Below are positions 1 through 16,003 of a stretch of 33,760 bases of DNA, piece by piece. The stretch spans positions 1-33,760 of the forward strand of contig QWQJ01000145.1 in NCBI GenBank assembly GCA_003670865.1. The letters run 5' to 3'. This stretch comes from Planctomycetota bacterium. Lineage in GTDB: Bacteria > Planctomycetota > Planctomycetia > Pirellulales > UBA1268. A program made the position numbers and the translations under genes. How positions within the stretch are numbered: position 1 is the stretch's first letter; each line of letters opens with the position of its first letter. The notes below the pieces were generated by a model. The model saw only the letters and a program-made list of their open reading frames with translations, was not told the DNA's origin and did not search any database.

Positions 1-3000
1 ACTTCAAGCATCAGCAGTCTCAGGCTTGTGGCGTAGATTCTGCCGCCGGCCGCCTCCCACTGATCACCTGGATCCCAGGTGCCGCGATGGGGTCCATCGA
101 TCACTTGGGTTGTGAGCACGAGGTCGCTCATGGCACTATTCCATTTTCGCCAAGGCTCGCCTTGCACATGGAATAAGGCCTGCGTGCCGTAGTAGCAGGA
201 ATAACTCGTGTCTTGGCCCTTGGCCGGTAGGTGCTCCAGTAAGAAGTCAATATTTTTTCTGACCTCAGGTGCGTCGATTTTGCTGCCCAGATATTCCATG
301 CACAACAGTCCTTCGGCTGTCATCGCGGGATTACCCGCACCGCCGGGGACGTAGGCAAACTCCCGCCCATCCGGTCCGCAGCGGCATTTTTCCAGCCAAT
401 TTCGAGCTTTTTCAAGCGTCTCGCCCGGAACCGTGAGGCCGGCCATCTGTCCGCTCTTGAGTGCCATTAACTGCCAGCCCATCACTGACGTGTCGCCGGG
501 TTCGCCCGGTCTATACCGCCAGCCTCCGTCGGCGTGCTGAGACTTGACGATGAAATCGATTGCCCGCTGCGCAGGCCCCATCAACGCCTCGTCCTTGGTC
601 ATGCCGAAGGCCTCGCACAAGCTAATCGTAGCAATGCCATGACTGTAGAGATACGCATTGCTGGGCTGCCCAACAAAGAGATCACCGTCCGGCTTTTGCT
701 GCTTCACGATCCACTCCAGACCCTTGCCGACCATCGCCCGATAGCGGCCCGATGTATGGGTGTGGCCGTCGCCCAGAAACGGCAAGAGCGCAAGGCCCGT
801 GGCCGCGGTGTCGCTCTGCTCGTTACCCTGCCCGGAATAGGCTTCCCCGGCGGGGCCAGCCTTAAACTGTTTGAGACTCCAGTGGCCATCTTCGAGCTGC
901 ACAAGGGCCAGCCAGTGCAGGCCCCGCTGGATCGCTTCGAGCGTGCCGGCCTGTCCCCCAAAGGCATCGATCAAATCCTGTTTTTTAGCGTCGTCGCCCT
1001 GACGTTCACGGAGCATCTGCTGCAGCCCGATCGTGTCTTGGGCATACAGCAAAGAAGTCGCCCTGCTTCGCTGGCGGACGGGAGCCACAACAGTCGGAGT
1101 GGAAAAAGTGGCGGCTGTCAATTCGGCCCTACCGCCGATGTCACCAGCCTTGAGGCTAGCCGGCCGCAGCTCAGAGCGACCGATCGCTTCGGCGAGTGAT
1201 TTGTTGGCGATTGCCCCCGATGCAGCAGCACTCGTCCGCACGACCTCGACCCCCTCCGGGCGGAGATTGTTGTCATCCTCGCTTGGCAGTCGAGGACTCT
1301 TGTCGGGGCTCAAGCGGGATATTTCCATCGGCACGATGGCTCCAGTTTCGGCAAATTCCACAGGGGCAGTCGCTGCGGTGCGACTTAAAGCCGCGCTTGC
1401 CGCCGCAGGGCGAGCAGCCGCAGCCGCCGGAAGGGCTTTGGCCTCGACATCGGCCACCAGGGTCGAGGAACGACGATCTCCCGAGGCTGAGGCGACTGTG
1501 GACCGCGTGAAATCAATCGTTGCCCCGCCGGCCTTGCGAGCGAGTTCCACTTCTACGCTGGGCGCACTTGGCGCGTCTCCCTTGACGGCTGTGAAAGCCG
1601 CTTTACTCAGAGCGTCTGTGGCAATCGTTTCTGATGGCGCGGTCGTGTCGATATTTCCAGCGCGATTCTGACGTGCGAGAGAAGATGCGTCGACAGCGTT
1701 TGCGACCGTGTTGGGCGAGGAAATAGCAGCTTGCTGTCTGTTTCCTTCAAGGTCGGCTCGAGGAATGGCCGGCGTGACAGCCTCCCGTCGCACTTCCGGT
1801 GCGATCACCTCAAGCCGCTTGGGTGCGACTTTTTGGGTCGTCACCTCCGCGATTGTGAGGGCGATCTCAACCGGCGCAAAAGACACCTGCTGTGCGGGAG
1901 CAATTGCGACCTCGATCTCTGCCTGGACCTGTTCCAGCGATTCCTGGCGGCGAATGACCTGCGGAGTCTCTTGCTCTAGAACGATGACCGGGCCGATTGC
2001 AACAACGGACCCATTCAACTGCTCGCGGTTCAAGAGTTTAGAAATTGTCACTGTCGGTACTGGTGTCGGCAGCGGTAGGGTGGGATTTTCAACCGCTTGC
2101 CTGGGCTCCGAGGTAACCTCGGCACTTGCTAGCGACTGCAAATCAGCAATCTTTTCAAAAGCCGCTGGATCAGCCACCTGGGCCGGACTCGATTCAAGTT
2201 GCACATTGGTTGCTACGATCTTTTCGATCTGCTGCTTGATCCGCTGTGCAATCGTAACGCCCTCAATGGGCACAAAGAACGCACCCGTCAGCAACAGCAT
2301 GTGGAGGCACAGTGCGACCAAAAAGAAGGCCGGCAGAGGCGCTCGCCGGAGCGATCTTTCCCGCAGATAATAGAGCACTGCTGCCATCAGCCCCAGCACA
2401 ATCACGGCCAGGAAAAGCCACCACCAGTGGCCCGCCAGCGGTGCCGCATGGGCGGTGCTCCATGTTGTTTCGGCGAAGGTCTCCGTAGCTTGGCTGGCGT
2501 AAAGGGAGTAGAGATCTGGCGAGTGCTTGGAATCGCCAGCCCGGTCGCTGCTAAAGACAATGCGGAAGCCTTCGGGCGAAAGAGCCGGATCGTGCTCGTT
2601 GGCCGAGGTGTTGATGCCGCTGCCGATATTTTCAACCGGGGCAATGCCTGCCTGTCTGAGGCGGACGCGGTAGATGTCATAATTGCGAGCGGCACCGTGA
2701 GGATTTGTGCGGTCGGATGTGAAATAGAGAAACGCCCCATCAGGAGAGACAAAGGGCTCGCCTTCGTTGGCGGTAAGTGTGTTGACGGCTTGAAAATTGA
2801 CGGCGGCGGTCCACTCGGCTCTCGCGCCATCAAGCTCTGAGACATAAAGGTCAAATTGCTGGAGGGCAACTTCAGCCCGCAAAGTCGCCCGCCATGGCAC
2901 GACAGTGGCCCCCTGATCTGCTGCAATGGCGAGACGATTTTCCATTGTGGTCGTGCGGTTACTAGCAAAAAAGAGTCGTTTACCATCGGGGGATATTGCC

Positions 3001-3563
3001 GGGTCGTATTCGTGAGCCGGCGAATTGAATAGCGGTCCCATATTTTCAGGCTCGCTCCAGCCGGCCGGCGTGCGGCGCGACACAAAGAGGTCGTAGCCGC
3101 CATAGCCGCCGGGCCGGTCGGAATAGAGATAGAGCGTGCTGCCGTCGGTCGAGATGACCGGCCCATAATCGCCCGCTGGCAAATTAAGATTTTCAACAGG
3201 CTCGCCTGCTAGCCACTGCTTTCCGTCAAACTGCGAGCGGTAGATGTCGGCTTCCCCGCCCGGTTGCCGAAGCGTGTAGTAAAGTGCCAGACCTCCTTCG
3301 GCGAACTGCGGCCGAACAAGACTCTCTGGAATCGCAGCGTCGATGACGCTCGGTGTGAGCGGCTCGGCTTGCCGCCAGGTAATTTTTCGCTGCGGCGGGG
3401 CGCTCTGTTGGGTCCATTGCTGCGTCCCGTCGACAAGCACCACTTGATGCACTCGCCGAGGTATGGCCCACAGCGAACACCCGATCACCAACAGCATCAA
3501 GAGCGTTGCCGGAATGTACCATCCGGGAAAACGCCACGCTCCTAAGGATTGCCTGCTGATCAT
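1..3563 (-). CDS. Composite membrane protein: N-terminal TM, PD40/TolB-like beta-propeller, TM hairpin, long disordered linker, squalene-cyclase/prenyltransferase-like repeat domain (C-terminus truncated by window edge)
   Basis: Own translation of the minus strand: one open frame from ATG at 3563-3561 (MISRQSLGAWRFPGWYIPATLLMLLVIGCSLW) to position 1 with no stop seen. Absent from the ORF track, presumably because it is open at the edge. PD40 motifs (DPAISPDGKRLFFASNR, EPFVSPDGAFLYFTSDR, DPALSPEGFRIVFSSDR), TMs (WWWLFLAVIVLGLMAAVLYYL; PAFFLVALCLHMLLLTGAFFVP), toroid repeats (AIQRGLHWLALVQLEDGHWS, AIDFIVKSQHADGGWRY). Confidence 0.85.
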   Translation of the reverse strand, partial: MISRQSLGAWRFPGWYIPATLLMLLVIGCSLWAIPRRVHQVVLVDGTQQWTQQSAPPQRKITWRQAEPLTPSVIDAAIPESLVRPQFAEGGLALYYTLRQPGGEADIYRSQFDGKQWLAGEPVENLNLPAGDYGPVISTDGSTLYLYSDRPGGYGGYDLFVSRRTPAGWSEPENMGPLFNSPAHEYDPAISPDGKRLFFASNRTTTMENRLAIAADQGATVVPWRATLRAEVALQQFDLYVSELDGARAEWTAAVNFQAVNTLTANEGEPFVSPDGAFLYFTSDRTNPHGAARNYDIYRVRLRQAGIAPVENIGSGINTSANEHDPALSPEGFRIVFSSDRAGDSKHSPDLYSLYASQATETFAETTWSTAHAAPLAGHWWWLFLAVIVLGLMAAVLYYLRERSLRRAPLPAFFLVALCLHMLLLTGAFFVPIEGVTIAQRIKQQIEKIVATNVQLESSPAQVADPAAFEKIADLQSLASAEVTSEPRQAVENPTLPLPTPVPTVTISKLLNREQLNGSVVAIGPVIVLEQETPQVIRRQESLEQVQAEIEVAIAPAQQVSFAPVEIALTIAEVTTQKVAPKRLEVIAPEVRREAVTPAIPRADLEGNRQQAAISSPNTVANAVDASSLARQNRAGNIDTTAPSETIATDALSKAAFTAVKGDAPSAPSVEVELARKAGGATIDFTRSTVASASGDRRSSTLVADVEAKALPAAAAARPAAASAALSRTAATAPVEFAETGAIVPMEISRLSPDKSPRLPSEDDNNLRPEGVEVVRTSAAASGAIANKSLAEAIGRSELRPASLKAGDIGGRAELTAATFSTPTVVAPVRQRSRATSLLYAQDTIGLQQMLRERQGDDAKKQDLIDAFGGQAGTLEAIQRGLHWLALVQLEDGHWSLKQFKAGPAGEAYSGQGNEQSDTAATGLALLPFLGDGHTHTSGRYRAMVGKGLEWIVKQQKPDGDLFVGQPSNAYLYSHGIATISLCEAFGMTKDEALMGPAQRAIDFIVKSQHADGGWRYRPGEPGDTSVMGWQLMALKSGQMAGLTVPGETLEKARNWLEKCRCGPDGREFAYVPGGAGNPAMTAEGLLCMEYLGSKIDAPEVRKNIDFLLEHLPAKGQDTSYSCYYGTQALFHVQGEPWRKWNSAMSDLVLTTQVIDGPHRGTWDPGDQWEAAGGRIYATSLRLLMLE

Positions 3564-3608
3564 TGGTATCTTTCGGATGGGAGACAATTATCGCCAAGAT
3601 TCTGCCGC

Positions 3609-4019
3609 TTATGTCGGTTGCTCTAACACCGTACACGCGTACTGGATTTCTTCTTTCTTGCACATACCGATCACCGTCAGCGGGAAGCGAAACGGCACAT
3701 CCTGATCAGCGCGAATCTGCACCCGCTGGTTGCCAGGATTTCGCACCACTGCTTCATGCAGGATCGCCCCGAGTTGTTCTTCTGTGTAGTCCTTGCCGCC
3801 GACATTGAACGCTCCGCCCTTGGTGATGTTGATGACAAGTTCCTGAACACCGCTGACGAGGGGCTGAGCTTGGAGAATTTCCGCCAAGTTGATCGAAACG
3901 AGCTTTTCTTCGTCGTCGAAACGGGTGGCGACGAGAAAGAAAATCAAGAGCAGAAATACGACATCAATCATCGGCGTCAGGTTCAACTCGTCATCGCGTT
4001 CGGCGGCGGGCATTTTCAT
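3609..4019 (-). CDS. ExbD/TolR family biopolymer transport protein
   Basis: 136 aa; LNLTPMIDVVFLLLIFFLVATRF is the canonical ExbD/TolR TM with conserved Asp; adjacent to an exbB-like gene. Confidence 0.95.
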   Translation of the reverse strand: MKMPAAERDDELNLTPMIDVVFLLLIFFLVATRFDDEEKLVSINLAEILQAQPLVSGVQELVINITKGGAFNVGGKDYTEEQLGAILHEAVVRNPGNQRVQIRADQDVPFRFPLTVIGMCKKEEIQYACTVLEQPT

Positions 4020-4074
4020 AGATCGGTTCCGTCAAGAGCTCTAAAATGGGTGGGGTACGGTCGGGGTTCACTGC

Positions 4075-4929
4075 TTAGGATCGCTGCGATCCCGAGGGCT
4101 GTTCCATGCGGGCAAAACTGGGCAGCAGCTGCAGGAGCAGGCCGTCCATTTTCACCATGTAACGATCCAATTTTGCGTTGAAATACGCCAGCAAGAGAAT
4201 GCACGGCACGGCGATCGTGAGACCCAGCGCAGTTGTCAACAAGGCCAGATAAATTCCTTTGGCCAGGAGTTCGGCCTTCCCCAGCCCAGCCTGGCTAGCC
4301 ATCTGGAAAGCAAAAATCATTCCCACAACCGTGCCGAACAGGCCCACTAGTGGGCCAACGTTGGCCATCACCGACAGCCCCCGTTGCTTGCCGCGGAGGA
4401 TCAAAAACTCGCGAGCCATCGCATCCTCGATCCCCTTTTCGACTTCCGCCAGAGGGCGGCCGGCCCGCAGGAGTGCGTCGCGCAAAACACGGGCCAGCGG
4501 AGCGTCGGAACTACCGGCCAAGACACGGAGATTTTCGAGCGTGTCTGTTTCGGTTCGCACGAGGTGCTCAAGTTGCTGCATGAGGGCTTCGGGCATCACT
4601 TTTTCACGGCGTAGATGAAATAGTCGCTCCAGTCCAACGGTGGTTGCAATCATCGAAAAGATGAAGAGCACAACGTAAAAACACATCCCAATCCAATCAT
4701 TGGCATTTCGCGGGATGCGAAAAATTTCTTGGCCGAGCGTGCGGAGCGTTTCACTGGACGCATCGGAGGGTGCCGACGCGATACCGGCGGCTGCTGCAAT
4801 GGGAGCAGGGGGCTGCGCGGACGCTGGTTGAATCGATACACCCGGCAGAGCGCCCAGGAGTGCGACGGCCAGAAAGATACTTCGGTACATCGCTCGTACA
4901 ACAGGGGCATGAGAAAACGATATCATCAA
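4075..4929 (-). CDS. MotA/TolQ/ExbB proton channel family protein
   Basis: 284 aa; N-terminal signal-like segment plus three TM segments; ANVGPLVGLFGTVVGMIFAFQ ... GIYLALLTTALGLTIAVPCILLLAYF typical of ExbB/TolQ. Confidence 0.95.
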   Translation of the reverse strand: MMISFSHAPVVRAMYRSIFLAVALLGALPGVSIQPASAQPPAPIAAAAGIASAPSDASSETLRTLGQEIFRIPRNANDWIGMCFYVVLFIFSMIATTVGLERLFHLRREKVMPEALMQQLEHLVRTETDTLENLRVLAGSSDAPLARVLRDALLRAGRPLAEVEKGIEDAMAREFLILRGKQRGLSVMANVGPLVGLFGTVVGMIFAFQMASQAGLGKAELLAKGIYLALLTTALGLTIAVPCILLLAYFNAKLDRYMVKMDGLLLQLLPSFARMEQPSGSQRS

Positions 4930-4975
4930 ATTCTCCTCAAATCTAAGGGGCTGCTATGAGGCCAATGGTCTAGAG

Positions 4976-7900
4976 TCACTTTTTTAACTCCGCAATCAAT
5001 CGTTTTGCATCGGCGACGCGCTCGTGCTGCGGATATTTTTCCAAGAGGGTCTCCAATGTGGCAATCGCCTTGGGCTTGTTGCCTGATTCCATGAAGCAGC
5101 GGCCGGTTTCGAAGGCCGCCATTCCCTGCCAATGTTCGTACGGATAGCCGACCGACACCGCGAGAAAGTCCTCGATAGCGTCGTCATATTTTTTTCGTGC
5201 AAAGTCGATTTCTCCCAGCATAAACCGCGCCTTTGCTGCTATCTCCGCTTCTGTTTCCTGGGTCACCTGTTGGTAGAGTTTCTCGGCCGGATCGAGCTGA
5301 TTTTGAGTCTGCATCGCAAATGCCAGACCGTAGCGGGCATCCGCCACCTGTTCAAATGTAGGGAACTGTCGCAGAAGCGCATCGAAGTGGGCTTGGCTGG
5401 CGGGCCAGTTTTTAAGATTCGCAGCACAAGTGCCTGCGCGGTACAGCGCACGGGCATGGTATTTTTCCACTTTGTCAGAAGCGACTTTTTCAAACAGTGG
5501 CAAGGCGTCGAGAAACTTTTGTTGCTCAAATAGACTTTCGGCGGCCAGTTGCCGTGCCGCCCCGGCCAGCGGACCGAGCGGAAAATCCTGCAACTCCGCG
5601 AGCAGCACCGTGGATGCATCCGCATATTTTTGTTGGCGGAATCGCATGTCGCCCAGCTTGTACTGCAGCTTTTCGCGGAGTTGTGGGTCCTTTGCGACGG
5701 AGAGTCCCGCAGCAAAGGCCTTGGAGGCTTCTTCAAACGCTGGCCCCTTGGCAGCAGCCTCGGCTTTTTCGCCGGTGGCCTCGTGAAACCGGCCAACATG
5801 AAACCAGGCTTCACCCGCTAGCGGGCTGTCTGGATGTGCTGCAACGAGGGTCGCAAATGCCTCGCGAGCCTCTTGTGCCTTACCCTCGGCCAGAAACTCA
5901 TGGCCGATCTCGTAGCGAATGCGGTCTGCATTGGGGTAGTTCTTATCGATGGCGAGAATCGCCGCCAACGTAGCTTGAGCGGCGGCACTATTTTTCTGAG
6001 CGATCTGACAGATGGCCAGCGCATAGCGGGCGTCGAGGGACTGAGCAGGGAGAGGGTTCGTGGCAATAAAGGCCCCGAAGTCCTGCACGGCTCCGTCGAA
6101 CTGCTGCAATTGCTGTCGTACCGCCCCTCGCAGAAAAAGGCCACTGGCTTTTATTGTGGCATCGCCCTTTCCGGCGAGCAGTTGGTCGAGCACCCCAAGC
6201 GACTTTTGTGCATCCCCTTTGGCGAGGATCGCCGAAGCCAGCCCATACTGCGACGCTGGCACAAGATCGGACTGTGGAAAGAGTTGAATCACTTGTTCAA
6301 ATCGCTGGATGGCAGGATCGAGTTCATTTTTTCCCCGAGCAATTTCAGCTAATTGAAAGGTCGCTTGAGGTCGCAGCGGACTGCCGGGGAATTTTGCCAA
6401 GAGTAATTCCAGTCGCTTTGCCGCCCCATCGGGATTCTTTAAAGCCAAGAGTGCCCCGGCTGCCTCAGAGAGCATTTCGTCGCCCCGCTTGGAGTCGGGC
6501 AGGATCGCTAGAGCCAGGTCGAAGGCTACAAGAGCCTCGGGGTTACGCTCGAGCTTTGCATGACTGCGGCCGATCAGATGCTGGGCTTCTGCCTTGTGCT
6601 CTGGGTCGGTGAGCGACGCGACTCGCCCCGACAGGTAGGCGATGGCGTCCTCTGGCTTACCGTCTTCTAATAAGCACCATCCGATGCGCAGCACGGCCCG
6701 TGGTAGCCGATTGTGATCGGGGTATTTTTCCACCAACTGCCGATAGAGAGCCTCGGCTTTTTTTCGCTCGGCGGCATCTTTTTGACCGAGACCCAGCAGG
6801 CTGGACTCGGCGGCAATAAAGAGCACCGTGGGCCGCAACGGACTGGCATCGTTGGCCTGATTGGCTAGAAATGTCTCGGACTGCTGCTTGGCGACAACAA
6901 AGTTTTCCTCCCCCAACGCGATCAAAGCCGACATGTATCCAGCGTGAGGAGCCAAAGCGTGCTGAGGAAATTTTGTCAGGAAGTCGCTGTAGCTGGCGGC
7001 GCTTTCTTTGCGGCGGGCGGGAATGTCGTAGGCGGCATCGGCCCGGGCCATCGCCAAATAGGGCACAAACTCTCCGCTGGTGAATTGCTTTATGGCCGGG
7101 TCGATCATCGCGATCGCTTCCTCGGGTTTGGATTGCTTGAGAAGCACGCGGCCGCTCCAGTAAGAGGCCTCTGCCTGCTCTGCGGGCTTCGCAGTAGCAT
7201 CGCCAATCACGGGCTTAAAGGCAGCGAGAGCTTCGGCCAGTTTATCTAGGTCAAAGAAGCACTTGCCTGCGGCGATCTCTGCGGCCGCTTTGAGGCCACT
7301 CTTCGGAAAGGCTATCGGCAACGTAGCAAGCACCTGCGCTGCCTCGACTTTTTTACCCTGCTCGATGCGACATTGGCCCTGACGCAACAGGGCAAAATCG
7401 GCAAGATCGTAATCCTTCTGCAGAGCGACTTCTGCAAAGCGCGACTCTGCCTCCTGAAATCGCTTCAATTCGTAGAGGCAGACGCCGTGCCGCAGCCGAA
7501 TCTCCGTAGCGAGATCATGTTTTTCAAGCTTTTGTTTTTTAAGAAACGCATCGTATGTTTCTGCCGCTGCGGCAAACTGTAATTGCTCCTGCTGGGCGAC
7601 GCCAAGGTAGTAAGCGGCATCTGCGGCTTGGCTGCTGTCGGGAAATTGGCTGAGAGTCTGTTTGTAGGTCTCGACCGCCCCTGCCTTGTCACCGGCCGCG
7701 TAGAGCGATTCACCGCGCAAGGCAAGCGACTTCGCCGCATGTCTGCTGGCGGGAAATTTCTGGACCACCAAAGCGAATTCGGTGGCCGCACTTTTCCAAT
7801 CCTCAGCCTTGCCACTGGCGGTAGCCATTTGATAGCGGGCCATGCCAAGGTTGAACAAGGCCCCGTCGCTGTTTTCAAACTGCGGATATTTCTGAGCGAT

Positions 7901-8215
7901 CACCCCAAAGGAAGCGATTGCCTCGGGGAACTTTTGAGTGTGCAACTGACAGATACCAAGATAGTAGTAGGCCTTGTCAAGCCGTTCGTCCTGTGGGTGG
8001 TCCTTAAAAAATTGTCCCCACTTCTGTGCTGCTTTTTCGTAGAGCCCGTTGTTTTGCAGGGCAGCAGAGGTGTTGAAATCTCGCGCAGCAGCGGGATCGA
8101 CCTCTTGAGCGGCAAGACTCCATGCTGTCAGCGCTAGGGCTAGACCGAGAATAACCACACGGTAGCCCGCTTGAAGCCCGCTGCCAACGAGATCCGACGG
8201 TTGGCGAATCCGCAT
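4976..8215 (-). CDS. Large secreted tetratricopeptide-repeat protein (YbgF/CpoB-like repeats)
   Basis: 1079 aa; signal peptide-like N-terminus (VVILGLALALTAWSLAAQ), many TPRs (AYYYLGICQLHTQKFPEAIASFGVIAQKYPQ...). Confidence 0.92.
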   Translation of the reverse strand: MRIRQPSDLVGSGLQAGYRVVILGLALALTAWSLAAQEVDPAAARDFNTSAALQNNGLYEKAAQKWGQFFKDHPQDERLDKAYYYLGICQLHTQKFPEAIASFGVIAQKYPQFENSDGALFNLGMARYQMATASGKAEDWKSAATEFALVVQKFPASRHAAKSLALRGESLYAAGDKAGAVETYKQTLSQFPDSSQAADAAYYLGVAQQEQLQFAAAAETYDAFLKKQKLEKHDLATEIRLRHGVCLYELKRFQEAESRFAEVALQKDYDLADFALLRQGQCRIEQGKKVEAAQVLATLPIAFPKSGLKAAAEIAAGKCFFDLDKLAEALAAFKPVIGDATAKPAEQAEASYWSGRVLLKQSKPEEAIAMIDPAIKQFTSGEFVPYLAMARADAAYDIPARRKESAASYSDFLTKFPQHALAPHAGYMSALIALGEENFVVAKQQSETFLANQANDASPLRPTVLFIAAESSLLGLGQKDAAERKKAEALYRQLVEKYPDHNRLPRAVLRIGWCLLEDGKPEDAIAYLSGRVASLTDPEHKAEAQHLIGRSHAKLERNPEALVAFDLALAILPDSKRGDEMLSEAAGALLALKNPDGAAKRLELLLAKFPGSPLRPQATFQLAEIARGKNELDPAIQRFEQVIQLFPQSDLVPASQYGLASAILAKGDAQKSLGVLDQLLAGKGDATIKASGLFLRGAVRQQLQQFDGAVQDFGAFIATNPLPAQSLDARYALAICQIAQKNSAAAQATLAAILAIDKNYPNADRIRYEIGHEFLAEGKAQEAREAFATLVAAHPDSPLAGEAWFHVGRFHEATGEKAEAAAKGPAFEEASKAFAAGLSVAKDPQLREKLQYKLGDMRFRQQKYADASTVLLAELQDFPLGPLAGAARQLAAESLFEQQKFLDALPLFEKVASDKVEKYHARALYRAGTCAANLKNWPASQAHFDALLRQFPTFEQVADARYGLAFAMQTQNQLDPAEKLYQQVTQETEAEIAAKARFMLGEIDFARKKYDDAIEDFLAVSVGYPYEHWQGMAAFETGRCFMESGNKPKAIATLETLLEKYPQHERVADAKRLIAELKK

Positions 8216-8424
8216 AGTAAAGTCTCCGGTTCAAAAACCCAACGCCGACCGTAATCTCCGCGGCAATTCCTTGGAGCAGGGATTAACCCTGCGCCCGACA
8301 TTGTGCTTGCTTGCAGAAGTGATTGCAAACGAAGGACGGAGTGCCCTTTTGGGCAGAATTATTCAATATCGCGTGAGCCAAACGGACGGCCAGCCCTCGG
8401 GGCCTACGCTGCAAGCGAATATCT

Positions 8425-9126
8425 TTAAATCCGGCCGATGAACAGCGAGTTGCAACTGCTGCTGCTGGAATGGGTGCGGGCCCGCTCCACCGTGACTGAA
8501 AAACCAGAGTGACGCATCTGTTCGGCAAACGCTGGATCGTGGCCAGCCGACCAGATCGCCAAGCAGCCAGCGGGCTTGAGTGCGGCTCTGGCCAGTAAGA
8601 GCCCGGTCGTCGTATAGAGGTTGTTATTTTTTTGGACGCTCAGGCCGCTGGCCCCGTTGTCGACATCGAGGATGATCGCGTCGAAAGCCGCCCGGCTTGT
8701 GCGCAGTAGATCCTGCACATCGCCTTGTACGAGTTTCACGCGGGAATCGGCCAAGGCATCTTTGCCAAGATTGTACTCCGGTACCAGATTCCAAGCGATC
8801 ACCTCTGGGATCAGTTCGACAACCACAACGCGAGCCTCAGGGCCGAGGTGCTTAAGGGCTTCGCGGAGCGTAAAGCCCAATCCCAGTCCGCCGATCAAAA
8901 CCCTTCCTTCGGCTGATTGACTGGGAATGTGAGCACAGGCTCGTTCAGCCAAGAGTTCCTCTGAATGGTGTTGCCGGCTCGACATCAATTCGACGCCTGC
9001 GACGCGAATCATAAACGCGCCGTCGTGTTCATGCAGCGTCATGAGTTTGCCATCAGGGGTCCAGGCTTGATCCCGCAAGAAAGTAGTTTTCATGGCATCA
9101 CTGTATCGATCCGGGAGCCGCCTCAA
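8425..9126 (-). CDS. Spermidine synthase-like SAM-dependent methyltransferase fold protein
   Basis: 233 aa; VLIGGLGLGFTLREALKHL, VVVVELIPEVIAWN, DVQDLL...FDAIILDVDNG; start may be the internal Met (MKTTFLRDQ). Confidence 0.82.
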   Translation of the reverse strand: MRRLPDRYSDAMKTTFLRDQAWTPDGKLMTLHEHDGAFMIRVAGVELMSSRQHHSEELLAERACAHIPSQSAEGRVLIGGLGLGFTLREALKHLGPEARVVVVELIPEVIAWNLVPEYNLGKDALADSRVKLVQGDVQDLLRTSRAAFDAIILDVDNGASGLSVQKNNNLYTTTGLLLARAALKPAGCLAIWSAGHDPAFAEQMRHSGFSVTVERARTHSSSSSCNSLFIGRI

Positions 9127-9223
9127 GACAGCGGATTGTTATCGCTGGTTTTTCACTCCCACCCGGCAGTGATTTTTCCGAAAAACCGCTGGCATCAACG
9201 CCAGCCAGCAGAATTTCGACGGC

Positions 9224-10030
9224 CTAGCCAGGGGTTTGAAACTCTTGGGCTAGGGCGTCCCAAAGAGCAATCCGAGCCTCGATGCCCTGTCTGGCCGTCT
9301 CGGAGGCAACTGCCCACTTTTTAGGATCGTGGCCGCAAAGGCTCGCCACAATGCGACGGCAAATTGGCGCATGGCGGGCATCGTCGTGGGCAATATGACG
9401 ATCGAGGTAATAGCGGAAGCGGCCCCAGACGGCTGGCTCACGATCGGCCAGCGAGCCCACCAGATGGCGAAACATATCGGGAATCACATCTTCCCGCCCG
9501 TATGTAAAAGCCGCCACGATGTTGAGCGTTGAGCCCGACTGAATCACATCAAACGACTGCCGCACAAATGCTGCCGACGCTACAGGTGCCTGGCTGACAA
9601 CAAGTGCCTGAGCGATCGGATTGCCTCTGGTCAAAGCGGCTAAAAGTTTTTCGATCGGCTGGGTGTCAGCCTCGGCGAGTTGCATGCTCTGGAGATAGAG
9701 TTCAAAGTGCGAGGCGTAGCCGCCATCTGGGAGTGCATCGGATTCCTCGTCGAGAACAATTTCGTTGACCAGTCGGCGGGCCTCGGCGTCGGCGGTGGGC
9801 AGCCACGGCACGCTCGTGCAAGTGAGCCGCTGCTGCATCGACTTTAGCAGGCTTTGAAAGTCCCAGACGGCCCAAACATGCCACTCCATAAATCGCCGCA
9901 GCCGTTCTGGCCGATCGATTAGAGCATAAAGAGGATGTGCAACGAGGCGATGGCGTGTGTCGCGAAGGTCGATGGCGAAACTGCTGGCGGGCGGAAGAGC
10001 GACAGTTGTGGGAGTCATGATGCCTGGCAT
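9224..10030 (-). CDS. DUF3050-family (heme-oxygenase-like fold) protein
   Basis: 268 aa; HPLYALI..RLRRFMEWHVWAVWDFQSLLKSMQQRLTCTSVPWLP...LVNEIVLDEESD pattern recalled as DUF3050. Confidence 0.8.
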   Translation of the reverse strand: MPGIMTPTTVALPPASSFAIDLRDTRHRLVAHPLYALIDRPERLRRFMEWHVWAVWDFQSLLKSMQQRLTCTSVPWLPTADAEARRLVNEIVLDEESDALPDGGYASHFELYLQSMQLAEADTQPIEKLLAALTRGNPIAQALVVSQAPVASAAFVRQSFDVIQSGSTLNIVAAFTYGREDVIPDMFRHLVGSLADREPAVWGRFRYYLDRHIAHDDARHAPICRRIVASLCGHDPKKWAVASETARQGIEARIALWDALAQEFQTPG

Positions 10031-10256: not shown

Positions 10257-11744
10257 ATGCAAGCAGACTCTATTGGCATCGTGCTCGCCGGCGGATCATC
10301 ACGCCGGATGCAAGGAATGACGAACCCCAGTGCCGCTAACGCCGGCATCGGCCCCGGCGGGAAGGCTTGTCTAGAGTTTCGCGGCCGGACATTCTTAGAG
10401 CATGTTTGTGAGGCTGTGGCTGCAAGGGTGCCTGAAGTGATCGTCGTGGCAGCCCCTGGGCAGGCTTTGCCAAAGCTTCCGCTGGGCGTGCGAGTGATTC
10501 GCGATACGACGGCCAAGCTTGGGCCGCTGGCGGCTATCCGGGACGGAATGATAAGTGCCCTCGAGACAGCCCGCAGCAGCGGGCGAGCAGAGCCCCGTGT
10601 GGCAATGATTGCATCCTGCGATCTGCCGCTTTTGCGGAGTCAGATTGTAGGTCACTTGATCGAAATCGTTTCCGCAGCGATTGGTAGGTTTAGCACGCAG
10701 AAGTCATCCGCCTTTAGCACGCAGAAGCCATGCGCTTATGCTTGGGCCTTGCCAGAAGTGCATGCGCACAGGCAGGTGCTCGTCTCCGCGTTGAGCGTGA
10801 GCCTGCTACCCCACATCGAGGCCTATCTGGCCAAGGGCCGCCGCGATCTGCAGGGGTTTGCTCAGTGGCTTGAAACCATTGACCCGACGGTGATACGAAT
10901 TGTTTCGTCAGACGAACTGCGTGGGCTCGATCCTTCCCTCGAGTCTTTTTGTGACATCGATACGCCAGCAGAATTGCAATTGCTTCTTGAAGAGCACACT
11001 GACGCTCTAGGGACCGAACTTACCCACGATAGCGAGGCGGCCACGCAGTGGTTCAGCCAGTGGCATATCTACCGCTTGATCGTCGATCACGACCGACTCA
11101 GCCATCGGGGCATTCACGAGGCTCTTGGTAACTTTGTCAGAACAAACCGCTGCAGTCCGTTCTCACTGCTTGACATCGGCTGCGGCGACGCCGGGTTTAT
11201 TGCCCAGACATTTTTTCAGACGCAGATCGCATCGTATGTGGGAGTGGACGCCTCGAGTTCTGCGTTGGTCGAAGCCCGGCGGGAATTAGACTCTGTGCCG
11301 TTTCAGGTGGAGTTGGTCAAAGCCGATCTCGTGTGTCACCTTGTCGACAAAGCGGCGGCCGGTCTCCAGCGATTTGATCTGATCCTGGCCGGCTATGTGG
11401 TGCACCACTTGCCACTCGCAGAAAAGCAACTTTTTTTCAAACGCTGCCGCTCGCTGCTGGCAACCGACGGCCAGTTGCTTTTTTACGACGTCTGTCGGCG
11501 GCAGAGCGAAACCCGCCAGGAGTATCTCAACGACTATGTAACGATGATCCGATCGTGGAAAGAACTCTCCAAAGAAGCCCTCAAGAGCACCTGCCGGCAT
11601 GTCATTGAATGCGACTTTCCCGAGACCGAGGGAGTGATTATGGAGATGGCTCGCGAGGCCGGATTTGTCTGTGAAGGCAGCCAGATGTTTGCGGACCAAA
11701 CCGAATTTCATAGGCTTTTTTGTTTCTCACAAAGCAAGTCATGA
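10257..11744 (+). CDS. Fusion protein: MobA-like nucleotidyltransferase domain + class I SAM methyltransferase domain
   Basis: 495 aa single ORF; N-term IGIVLAGGSSRRMQG...GGKACLEFRGRTFLEHV...DLPLL (MobA/NTP-transferase); C-term FSLLDIGCGDAGFIAQ...YVGVDAS...FDLILAGYVVHHL (methyltransferase). Confidence 0.88.
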   Translation: MQADSIGIVLAGGSSRRMQGMTNPSAANAGIGPGGKACLEFRGRTFLEHVCEAVAARVPEVIVVAAPGQALPKLPLGVRVIRDTTAKLGPLAAIRDGMISALETARSSGRAEPRVAMIASCDLPLLRSQIVGHLIEIVSAAIGRFSTQKSSAFSTQKPCAYAWALPEVHAHRQVLVSALSVSLLPHIEAYLAKGRRDLQGFAQWLETIDPTVIRIVSSDELRGLDPSLESFCDIDTPAELQLLLEEHTDALGTELTHDSEAATQWFSQWHIYRLIVDHDRLSHRGIHEALGNFVRTNRCSPFSLLDIGCGDAGFIAQTFFQTQIASYVGVDASSSALVEARRELDSVPFQVELVKADLVCHLVDKAAAGLQRFDLILAGYVVHHLPLAEKQLFFKRCRSLLATDGQLLFYDVCRRQSETRQEYLNDYVTMIRSWKELSKEALKSTCRHVIECDFPETEGVIMEMAREAGFVCEGSQMFADQTEFHRLFCFSQSKS

Positions 11745-11893: not shown

Positions 11894-14800
11894 ATGGCAA
11901 CGCGAAATTCCCGATCGAGTGGAGGCTCCCGGCGACGAGGACGGCGTTGGGCGGTCTTTTCGCTGGCAGCATTGGCTATCAGCGGCGGCCTGATCTGGAT
12001 CGCGCCTACGGTGCTGGTGCTGACGGCACTGCGAGATCGTCCGCTGCAAGCTCTTTTCGCAGGTGTCGATGGGAGCGTCTCGAGCCGTGCAGCCCGATGG
12101 GACTGGTTGGGAAGCAGCGAGTACCGCGATGTCATGCTCTGTGATTCGGCTGGGCGATCAATCGTGGCGGTGCGACGGGTCATCATCGATCGCGGGCTTG
12201 TGGCACTTGCGTTTGACCCGACGCGATTGGGTACGGTGCGGTTGATCGGTGCCAAGGCACTGGTGGAAGTGCGGCGAGGCGGTAGCGGGCTAGAAGATAT
12301 TCTGGCACCGTGGCTGGCAGCGCGGAGCCAGGCTCCCACGAGGCCAGGTGTTTCGTTTGAACTGGAACTGGTTGACGCCTCGATCGAACTGATCGACACG
12401 GAGCGTCGCGATGTCTGGAAAATCAGCGAATTGATTGCGGCTGGCACCGTGCGGGCCGACGAAACGCTAGCCGGCTGGACGATGTCGGGCAGGGTGTCGC
12501 ACGCGGGTGCGGCGATCGCAGACTCGGCTGGCTCCTTGGGAACCGTGCCGCCGCCGGCCGGGCCCCGAGCCACTTCGCACGGTTCGCATCTGCCCGCCGA
12601 GGAAGTGGCTGAGAAGTTAGAATCGAGTCAACTCGACCGCACAACGATTGCCGCCGGGGCGACTTTGATGCTGGCCCGCGACGGCGGATGGTCGGTGTCG
12701 TCTCCCGCGGCACTAGCAGCCGATGGGCCGCGGTCACTGGCGATTGCTACCAATCGCGTGCCGCTAGGAGTGTCGAGCGTGTTGGCAACGCGTTTTGATC
12801 TGACGCACGTGCTCGACGGTTTGGCTGATGTGCGGCTTGATATTGTGCTCCCGGTGGCTGGTGGCCAACAGCCAGTAGGTTTGGGTGGCGGCAGCGAAAG
12901 TGTGGCGATCACGGGCATGATCGCTGGCTCGCAACTGGCAATCTGCCACGCCGATACGCTCGCTGAGATCATCACGCTCAATCGCTGCGAGATACCGCTG
13001 GATGTCTCTCTGAATAGACAGATGCTTACGATTCGTAACTTGAAGGCGACATCGCCTCTCTTCAAGGCCGAAGCCTCGGGCCGGATGCGGGTTCCTCAAG
13101 GGGGATCGTGGGAATTGGCAGAGGCACTGATCCATGAAGATTTTGCGCTGGCCGCCGACATCGATCTAGCCGCTGCCTCGCGCGCGATTCCGGGCGGGCT
13201 CACTGTACGGCCTGACGTGCGAGTGACTGACGGTCAACTGCAACTCTCAGCCACCGCCCACGCCGATGGCACCGATCGATTGCTGGAGGTGAGACTGACC
13301 TCCAGCGACTTAGCCGCGGTGCAAAGCGTGGCATTGCCAGTGGCTGTTTCGCCCAGTGGCCAACCTCAGCCAAATGCCCAGCCCAACGAGCGTCTCCTTC
13401 GCTGGAACCAGCCGTTCACCGCTTGGCTACGCGGACGGCGGGGCCCTGCCCGAACCGATTCAATTCGTATTGAAGAGGCCCGCATCGCCTCGCCCGCCGT
13501 GGAGGTGTCGGCCGCTGGCACCGCCGAATCATCGAGCATTCAGTGGATGCTTGACATCGACAAACTGATGAAAGAAGCGGCCGAGGTGCTCGACCTTCAG
13601 TCGCTCCAAATGGCCGGCACCGCGCGAGGCAAAATTGATATGAGTCGTGTGGCTGCCACCGGGGTGTCGACGGCTAAAATTTCTGCCAGCCTCAACAACT
13701 TTGAGTTGATCGCTCCGGGTCGGCCGGCGTGGCGGGATCAGGAGATCACGCTGGAAGCAGAGGGATCAGGCAGCATGGCGGGAGGCGCGGTGCTCCTTGA
13801 TCAAGCCCATGCCAGAGTGATGTCGGCAGACGACACTCTGGAATGGACGCTCACCGGCGGCACTCTCATCGATCTAAGCGCTGGCCTTGGCCGAGTGTCT
13901 AGCGGACTGAGTCACCAGACAATCTCTGCTCCGCCATGGGTACGGGCAGCGCAAAACTCCGTGGGCATCTCCGCTGACTGTTCGCTGTCGGGAGAACTTG
14001 CCAATTGGCAGGCGCGGTTTGAAGGCCTCATGCCAGGGATCGATTGTGGAGATCTGGAACTGGCCGGAAAGATGCAACTCTCGGCCGCTCTGGCCGCCCG
14101 CGGCGATAGCTGGCAGATCACCCGAGCCGGCGGGGAAATTGAAAAGCTGGTGGCAAAGTTTTCCGGTCGGGAAGTGGCTGAGCCGCGCGTAGTGGCCAGT
14201 GCCGCAGGCCTCTATAATCCCGCGAGCGGTCAACTGGAAATCTCATCGGGAGAGATTCTCACCGCAACGATGTCGCTGCGCACCGGAGGCGTTGTGCTCT
14301 TAGCCATCAGTCCAGGCATGGTTGAATCGGCGGGTAGATCCCTGATGGACCGCTTGCGTGGCAAGGTGCAGTGGCAGGCCGATGTAGGTCGCGTGGAAAA
14401 ATGGTTGGTTTCACCCTTGGCAGCGGCGAGTTGGCCAACCGCTGGCCGAGCGTGGGGCACGGTTGAATTGTTGGATACCCAAGCAGGCCTCAACCTACGA
14501 GTAGAAGCCACTGGCAATCAGTTATCGCTCTTGAGCGCGGTCGATGCGGGTGCCTCGGGGATTGCCAGACCAGCAACGCCCAAACAGATCTGGGCTGAAC
14601 CCCGTGCCGCTGTTGTGCTGGAAGTGACTCAGAACGGCACTTCGTCTCAGTCCAAGGAGCGATTGACAATCAATAAGCTCTCACTTGAATCTTCTACGTT
14701 AGCAGTGGCGGCGACAGGTAGCGTGGGAGAATGGTCGGCACGACCACTTGTCGATTTGAATGGCACGGTGGCGTACGACTGGGATTTGCTCTCGCGTTTA

Positions 14801-16003
14801 CTCACCCCTTGGACCGGTGGAAGGATACGATTGATTGGCGGCAGCACGCGGCCGTTTGCCCTTCGAGGCCCACTGACAAGCAGCGTTCAAACCGCCATCG
14901 ATGACCGGCGTTCGCCTGAAGGATCGTCTCCTCCTCCCAGAGTGATAGCGGGCGACAATTCGGCTGGCATCCCAATTCCAGATCATTGGCTTAAGACCAC
15001 GCAAGGCCCCGACGAGTCTGAAACTAAGGCACGCGCGCGGGTGGCCTTGCCCGTGGCTACAGCGACACGGACAGGCGGCAATGCGGCCGACTTTTTACGT
15101 GCCATCTCAATTGATACATCAACGGTGTGGACGGCGGCAGAAATAGAGGGAGTGAGCATCGATGCCGGAGAGATGGCCGTCCGACTTTTTGAAGGGCAAT
15201 TAGCGCTGGGCCCATTTGACATTGGCGCCGCTGGCGGTCGGCTCCGCGGTGCGCCCTGGGTGCGGCTCATGCCATGGCCGGGAGAACTGATTGTGCCGCC
15301 GGGCCGCGTGGTCGACCGCGTGGCTCTTTCAAACGGACTGTGCGATCGATTTGTAGCTTGGATTGCGCCGCTGGTCGGTCATTCAAGCCACAGCGAGGGA
15401 TTGCTGAGCGTCGATCTGGCCGGGGCCCGATTGCCGCTAGGAGATTTTTTTGGCGGCGAACTCTCCGGTCAGATGTTATTTGAAAATTTTGAAGTGACGC
15501 CGGGCCCGCAGGCGCAGCCGCTGGTGAATCTGATCGTCAAACTCCAGTCGTTGATCGATCCGCGATTTGCATTTGGCGACAAGACGGTCTTGATGCGGAT
15601 AAGGCCCGATCCGGTTCGCGTCAAGCTGGTGGATCGGCGACTCTGGCACGATGGCCTAGTCATGGAGATGGGGCAACTGACTGTCCGTACCGACGGCAGC
15701 GTTGGTGCTGATGGCTCGCTCTCGATGATGACCGAAGTGTCATTCCGCGGTGACATCGCCGGGGGTACGCCGATTGTCGGTCAATTACTGCGCACGCCGC
15801 TGGCAATACCGCTTCGTGGCACGCTCAACCGCCCGCAGTGGGACGCTGGCGCACTCGATAAGATTCTCTCTAGGATCGTGGAAAATACCGCCCAAGCGGT
15901 CCTCACCGACGGGATTGGCCGCGGCCTAAACGGTTTGGAAACGCTCTTTGGCAATCCGCAGCCACCAGCCCCCCAATCCCCTCAGGAGAGAGCAGCGCCC
16001 TAG
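11894..16003 (+). CDS. Large AsmA/TamB-like membrane-anchored protein
   Basis: 1369 aa; basic N-terminus, one TM (WAVFSLAALAISGGLIWIAPTVLVL), then long beta-rich sequence; C-term (LSVDLAGARLPLG...GTLNRPQWD) resembles AsmA-like proteins. Confidence 0.72.
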   Translation: MATRNSRSSGGSRRRGRRWAVFSLAALAISGGLIWIAPTVLVLTALRDRPLQALFAGVDGSVSSRAARWDWLGSSEYRDVMLCDSAGRSIVAVRRVIIDRGLVALAFDPTRLGTVRLIGAKALVEVRRGGSGLEDILAPWLAARSQAPTRPGVSFELELVDASIELIDTERRDVWKISELIAAGTVRADETLAGWTMSGRVSHAGAAIADSAGSLGTVPPPAGPRATSHGSHLPAEEVAEKLESSQLDRTTIAAGATLMLARDGGWSVSSPAALAADGPRSLAIATNRVPLGVSSVLATRFDLTHVLDGLADVRLDIVLPVAGGQQPVGLGGGSESVAITGMIAGSQLAICHADTLAEIITLNRCEIPLDVSLNRQMLTIRNLKATSPLFKAEASGRMRVPQGGSWELAEALIHEDFALAADIDLAAASRAIPGGLTVRPDVRVTDGQLQLSATAHADGTDRLLEVRLTSSDLAAVQSVALPVAVSPSGQPQPNAQPNERLLRWNQPFTAWLRGRRGPARTDSIRIEEARIASPAVEVSAAGTAESSSIQWMLDIDKLMKEAAEVLDLQSLQMAGTARGKIDMSRVAATGVSTAKISASLNNFELIAPGRPAWRDQEITLEAEGSGSMAGGAVLLDQAHARVMSADDTLEWTLTGGTLIDLSAGLGRVSSGLSHQTISAPPWVRAAQNSVGISADCSLSGELANWQARFEGLMPGIDCGDLELAGKMQLSAALAARGDSWQITRAGGEIEKLVAKFSGREVAEPRVVASAAGLYNPASGQLEISSGEILTATMSLRTGGVVLLAISPGMVESAGRSLMDRLRGKVQWQADVGRVEKWLVSPLAAASWPTAGRAWGTVELLDTQAGLNLRVEATGNQLSLLSAVDAGASGIARPATPKQIWAEPRAAVVLEVTQNGTSSQSKERLTINKLSLESSTLAVAATGSVGEWSARPLVDLNGTVAYDWDLLSRLLTPWTGGRIRLIGGSTRPFALRGPLTSSVQTAIDDRRSPEGSSPPPRVIAGDNSAGIPIPDHWLKTTQGPDESETKARARVALPVATATRTGGNAADFLRAISIDTSTVWTAAEIEGVSIDAGEMAVRLFEGQLALGPFDIGAAGGRLRGAPWVRLMPWPGELIVPPGRVVDRVALSNGLCDRFVAWIAPLVGHSSHSEGLLSVDLAGARLPLGDFFGGELSGQMLFENFEVTPGPQAQPLVNLIVKLQSLIDPRFAFGDKTVLMRIRPDPVRVKLVDRRLWHDGLVMEMGQLTVRTDGSVGADGSLSMMTEVSFRGDIAGGTPIVGQLLRTPLAIPLRGTLNRPQWDAGALDKILSRIVENTAQAVLTDGIGRGLNGLETLFGNPQPPAPQSPQERAAP

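Follow-up and report, generated by a model that had tools for sequence, protein, structure and literature searches.

By cryo-EM, Ser16 and His20 of TonB, and Ser18 and His22 of TolA, contact ExbB residues Ser34-Trp38-Pro190 or their TolQ equivalents (PMC12215075). The same work describes the SHLS motif (Ser-x3-His-x6-Leu-x3-Ser), in which the Ser-His pair is the best-conserved part. Planctomycetes keep an outer membrane and have a largely reduced Tol-Pal (PMC8871954), and TPR-TolQ-TolR-TolR-vWA force transducers have been proposed in the PVC group (Mol Biol Evol 2025, PMC12204202), in a paper that makes no mention of squalene-cyclase-like or toroid tips. No description of toroid-tipped arms was found in a search confined to open-access journal papers. 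Queries combining ExbD with squalene cyclase, or planctomycete motors with prenyltransferases, gave nothing on such arms, and the main text of two published PVC essential-gene studies does not discuss the operon genes described below.

The stretch of DNA analysed here (the window, 33,760 nt) is the start of contig C3 in the Pirellulales genome bin G000 (2.29 Mb, 81% complete). Four co-oriented ORFs occupy its minus strand from 8215 to 1. The first gene of the unit encodes a secreted large TPR protein (4976..8215, 1079 aa), followed by an ExbB/TolQ-type motor subunit (4075..4929, 284 aa; the start codon is TTG, or ATG one codon further in), an ExbD/TolR-type motor subunit (3609..4019, 136 aa) and a composite protein that we regard as a candidate force transducer (1..3587, 1195 aa seen). 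The ORF positions agree with the gene order and the gaps of 46, 55 and 45 nt reported in an earlier note on this DNA; the last gap shrinks to 21 nt if the composite starts at the TTG at 3587 instead of the alternative ATG at 3563. The C-terminus of the composite is lost at the contig edge, and since complete relatives run only about 15–20 aa further, its C-terminal toroid is nearly complete in the window. We propose, with a probability of about 0.78, that these genes form a unit in which a motor driven by the proton motive force (PMF) would work a force-transducer arm carrying a toroid load module. Another TPR-ExbB pair of this operon type lies on a different contig of the bin (L135, G000:C81 16000–21597), which ends after ExbB. 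Elsewhere in the window, a 1369-aa ORF (11894–16003, plus strand) has no Pfam match at 0.001, and a MobA-like nucleotidyltransferase is fused to a methyltransferase domain (10257–11744, plus strand).

A Pfam profile search agreed with the domains that the earlier note had read in the four proteins, namely TPR, ExbB, ExbD, and PD40 with a cyclase-like toroid. ExbB matched MotA_ExbB (5e-23, 81.6 bits, cut-off 22.9) and ExbD matched the ExbD family (2e-20, 73.4 bits, cut-off 25.4); profile matches to solved TolQ/ExbB and ExbD/TolR structures agree with the motor assignment. With equivalences taken from alignment to solved structures, the pore threonines of the operon ExbB proteins are kept almost without exception (Thr200 in 52/52, Thr233 in 51/52), as is the TM3 proline (Pro242, 52/52). 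By the TM1 equivalence, which comes from a weak alignment, Ser92 is kept in 48/49 and the Trp docking partner is replaced by Val or Leu. The proton-carrying Asp19 of ExbD is invariant in 14 operon relatives. Judged from family domains and key residues, the pair is thus predicted to be a PMF-driven ExbB/TolQ-ExbD/TolR motor. The TPR protein has CpoB/BamD-like repeats matching TPR_6 and TPR_16; the window copy carries a signal peptide and no lipobox. It scores 308 bits against TIGR02795 (cut-off 90), through repeated TPR stretches, and falls below the cut-off of the CpoB model PRK10803.

The order TPR-ExbB-ExbD-toroid recurs at at least about 40–47 loci in Planctomycetota, Lentisphaerota and Verrucomicrobiota; these surveys are samples, not a census, and beyond the first 20–30 loci the contig scan returned mostly ordinary ExbB. 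Among the matches listed, the unit is found in Planctomycetota at L055, L056, L057, L061–L064, L068, L075, L076 and L083, in Lentisphaerota at L058, and in Verrucomicrobiota at L060, L069 and L126, a few of these loci being cut by contig ends. Within the order it recurs in most sampled families. The operon TPR profile matches 35/149 genomes of the phylum at E<=1e-60, and most such neighbourhoods carry the unit; the profile alone overcounts, as matches without the operon occur at L139, L141, L144, L157 and others. Toroids were present in 4/4 Verrucomicrobiota/Lentisphaerota genomes and in 0/9 from other groups. Of 47 operon loci (a few of which are redundant, e.g. L052/L064), at most 3 share any given flanking gene family, and the four-gene order is kept all the same, which argues that the linkage is selected and is not leftover synteny. 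Proteins with the full propeller-TM-toroid arrangement occur in independent assemblies (L035, L036, L055, L056, L057, L068, L069, L137 and others). Two outcomes that, by the earlier note, would have refuted its proposal were not borne out, namely halves that usually lie in unlinked genes without ExbB/ExbD, and a fusion made by sequencing error: many independent assemblies have propeller and toroid in one protein beside ExbB/ExbD.

Hydropathy indicates three hydrophobic helices in the composite (aa 24–42, 390–408 and 421–439), whose features all lie on the minus strand. TM1 (aa 24–42, 3462..3518; helix 24–40 in the structure model) precedes a PD40 β-propeller at about aa 80–370 (2478..3350). 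TM2 (aa 390–408, 2364..2420), also seen in the model, is predicted to lead back to the cytoplasmic side and is followed by RERSLRR, and TM3 (aa 421–439, 2271..2327) reads VALCLHMLLL, with Ala425-x3-His429 as the putative TonB/TolA-like docking pair. An Ala/Val/Ser/Glu/Thr/Pro-rich linker of ~420 aa (about aa 440–860, 1008..2270) would form the periplasmic arm, and the chain ends in an α/α toroid of squalene-cyclase-like fold (about aa 870–1195, 3..980). The TM hairpin and long linker noted earlier are thus both present. If the N-terminus of TM1 is cytoplasmic, the topology would place the propeller in the periplasm, RERSLRR in the cytoplasm, and linker and toroid in the periplasm.

In relatives, the helix before the linker shows variants such as SLLLH, SLLVH and SVLLH; in the window it has ALCLH, with Ala425 at the Ser position of the docking pair. 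We counted a toroid protein as linked when a co-oriented ExbD gene lay no more than 1.5 kb away (n=43). Ser/Ala-x3-His occurs in the TM before the toroid in 38 of these, 33 with Ser; the motif scan left 5/43 without it. The motif is also present in 31/39 unlinked toroid proteins, against a background of 81/1849 (4.4%) for the remaining membrane helices at these loci. All 11 aligned composites have His429. The full SHLS motif is not kept: the Leu position is hydrophobic but variable and the last Ser is not conserved. Motif and conservation are strong indirect evidence, short of proof, that TM3 docks on ExbB in the manner of TonB and TolA. The earlier proposal of a TolA/TonB-like arm is supported by this docking pair, the conserved motor residues and a gene order recurring across PVC phyla.

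The four proteins would then act as one machine. Family membership and catalytic residues suggest that ExbB and ExbD assemble in the inner membrane as a 5:2 motor of the rotary type, powered by protons, and the conserved motif suggests that TM3 of the composite docks outside ExbB via Ser/Ala-x3-His, as in TonB and TolA. The linker would span the periplasm, and the toroid at its end would hold on to a partner, either close to the outer membrane or within the peptidoglycan. On the periplasmic side near the motor, the propeller between TM1 and TM2 may have an accessory part in sensing or docking, while the TPR protein may be a periplasmic adaptor. The job of the machine would be to pull on or move an envelope component.

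Toroid paralogs are also found away from the motor genes. A genome has several of them, many arranged as tandem genes, and most carry a single Ser-x3-His membrane helix. L176 (G000:C68) carries tandem toroid genes at 6585–8171 and 8333–9946 with no ExbB/ExbD nearby, and one of the two proteins begins with an SVLVH helix in its N-terminal part; many relatives have tandem pairs of this kind (L177–L186), most with Ser-x3-His helices. At L192 (7098–8957), L193 (6555–8420) and L191 (6472–8271), zinc-ribbon-like CxxC motifs (such as CPRCGG and CPDCGA) lie N-terminal of the Ser-x3-His helix in orphan toroid proteins, a position that the predicted topology, if correct, would put in the cytoplasm. These unlinked paralogs look like possible orphan TonB-like arms, and would be mechanical proteins rather than cyclases. 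Several such arms per genome resemble multiple TonBs sharing motors, and would suit an uptake or secretion energiser of the Ton kind, in which the toroid would open a channel in the outer membrane or drive the movement of a substrate, and paralogous arms would serve different channels. In the sample of the order, 15/30 genomes gave no TonB_C match, among them all three from the window's family (G000 being 81% complete); this too would fit such an energiser, yet the other half of the order has ordinary TonB_C proteins as well. Moreover, no conserved outer-membrane partner, receptor or channel gene was found beside the operon at 47 loci. We regard the Ton-like role as possible but rather unlikely; it falls within the motor-arm reading as one case of it, and the weights of the two overlap.

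The propeller bears on whether the motor and arm are instead a true but rearranged Tol-Pal, with the composite as TolA and TolB fused into one, as the earlier note had supposed, and a distant Pal completing the system. The unit does have TolQ-, TolR- and CpoB-like parts, and TolB is the best PDB fold match of the propeller (E 1.5e-11, TM about 0.4; model pLDDT 77.9). However, although PD40 is clearly matched (6.2e-33, Pfam), the propeller scores only 38 bits against the TolB model TIGR02800 (cut-off 343), the window proteins are likewise far below the cut-offs of the TolQ/TolR models, and TolB_N is matched neither in the window propeller nor in any of 30 genomes of the order, G000 included. 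Nor is there a Pal gene in the operon or, as the earlier note had observed, in the window; the only OmpA/Pal-type protein found in the genome sits on another contig (C50). The propeller is present in 25/43 ExbD-linked toroid proteins and missing in 18/43, and is thus accessory to the unit and does not define it. The same-genus relatives L045 and L046 have a form that lacks the propeller. The tip fold, finally, is unrelated to TolA_C/TonB_C. The proposed TolA-TolB fusion is not supported by these results, and we consider a rearranged Tol-Pal improbable. At two Verrucomicrobiota loci (L060 4458–6794 and L126 4725–7098), the gene after ExbD encodes a toroid inserted inside the PD40 propeller, and the next gene at L060 encodes a second propeller protein carrying a docking helix; propeller and toroid have thus been combined repeatedly beside the motor.

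The AlphaFold2 model of the toroid is an all-helical ring (pLDDT 90.7), and Foldseek retrieved terpene cyclases, sugar epimerases and complement TED domains at TM about 0.6. Pfam identified SQHop_cyclase_C (3e-9) and no TonB_C or TolA C-terminal domain in the composite, in line with the earlier suggestion that a toroid stands in for the usual TolA/TonB tip; VWA was not matched either. The fold, shared with epimerases and glycosidases, the SQHop_cyclase_C match and a PDB profile match to squalene-hopene cyclase (6e-22) could also indicate an enzyme cluster, in which the motor genes would be incidental to a toroid that is held at the membrane as a squalene/terpene cyclase or a domain for sugar processing. 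Against this, the catalytic DXDD(TA) reads EQSDTA in the window and is degraded in most aligned relatives (L068, with IDVDVT, is ambiguous), the cyclase models are far below their cut-offs (hopene_cyclase 42.7 bits, cut-off 431), and the structure model has a single toroid rather than the two-domain cyclase fold. The toroid gene remains next to ExbB/ExbD where the surrounding genes differ, and paralogs away from the motor still carry the docking-type helix. From its sequence and predicted structure, a cyclase role of the toroid is unlikely, and the enzyme-cluster explanation as a whole appears more doubtful still than a rearranged Tol-Pal. A cloning, assembly or binning artefact joining unrelated halves, which the truncated composite and the propeller-less L045 and L046 might suggest, is negligible, as full propeller-TM-toroid proteins occur in many independent assemblies, contig C3 fits the genus and the same genome holds a second operon. 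Misbinning of contig C3 was considered separately and rejected as unlikely, its aminotransferase being 73% identical to that of a same-genus genome.

The motor-arm scaffold also occurs with other C-terminal modules. L148, L153 and L154 carry the same operon with a propeller and an SLLVH-type helix and no toroid, and Pfam shows CarboxypepD_reg replacing the toroid in L148 and L153. Such exchange on the same scaffold is as expected of a load domain, and is consistent with the tip being an exchangeable load module. A DUF4159 protein follows TPR-ExbB-ExbD at L168 (2307–5990), and a 1681-aa vWA protein follows the TPR gene at L157 (5915–10960); both are further possible load modules.

A self-contained motor-arm operon with a residue-level motif is a concrete candidate for envelope constriction or bracing in the PVC group, testable by point mutation, and would give proton-driven force transducers a new kind of tip fold. 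It also suggests that planctomycete squalene-cyclase-like proteins with a Ser-x3-His helix are mechanical parts, though enzyme-like by family name. We speculate, from the absence of TolB_N and the published reduction of Tol-Pal in Planctomycetes (PMC8871954), that the unit might cover part of the Tol-Pal job where Tol-Pal is reduced. Still more tentative is the idea of a large family of proton-powered toroid arms in PVC bacteria, in which a core operon with its propeller and TPR parts, and several orphan arms per genome that share motors, would have taken over outer-membrane and division tasks of Tol-Pal.

Compared with squalene-hopene cyclases, terpene cyclases and complement TED, the composite is alike in its tip fold; unlike the squalene-hopene cyclases, it sets one toroid, with DXDD not kept in the window, on a membrane-anchored arm. 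With PorE, the T9SS/OmpA lipoprotein of TPR, propeller and OmpA domains, it shares PD40 repeats (NF052230, 110 bits), but this is far below the cut-off of 600, and the window protein has no OmpA domain match. The unit resembles Ton (TonB-ExbB-ExbD) in its ExbB/ExbD motor, TonB-like TM3 motif with linker, and several arm paralogs per genome; it differs in having an α/α toroid tip, not TonB_C, and no receptor gene nearby. Its likeness to Tol-Pal (TolQRA-TolB-Pal-CpoB) lies in the TolQ/TolR-type motor, the Ser/Ala-x3-His helix, the TPR protein and the PD40 propeller, whereas a TolA C-terminal domain, a TolB N-domain and an operon Pal are absent, and the propeller, anchored in the membrane, belongs to the same chain as the arm. 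By these features the system would work like TonB or TolA, yet belongs to neither Tol-Pal nor Ton. It shares with the vWA transducers (PMC12204202) the TPR gene, the motor pair, an SHLS-type TM, a disordered linker, a tip other than that of TolA, and PVC hosts. It differs from them in its toroid tip, in usually having one ExbD rather than two, and in the TM-anchored PD40 propeller that often lies ahead of the docking helix. The TPR-TolQ-TolR-vWA transducers of the PVC group are the nearest described kind, with the same logic and another tip.
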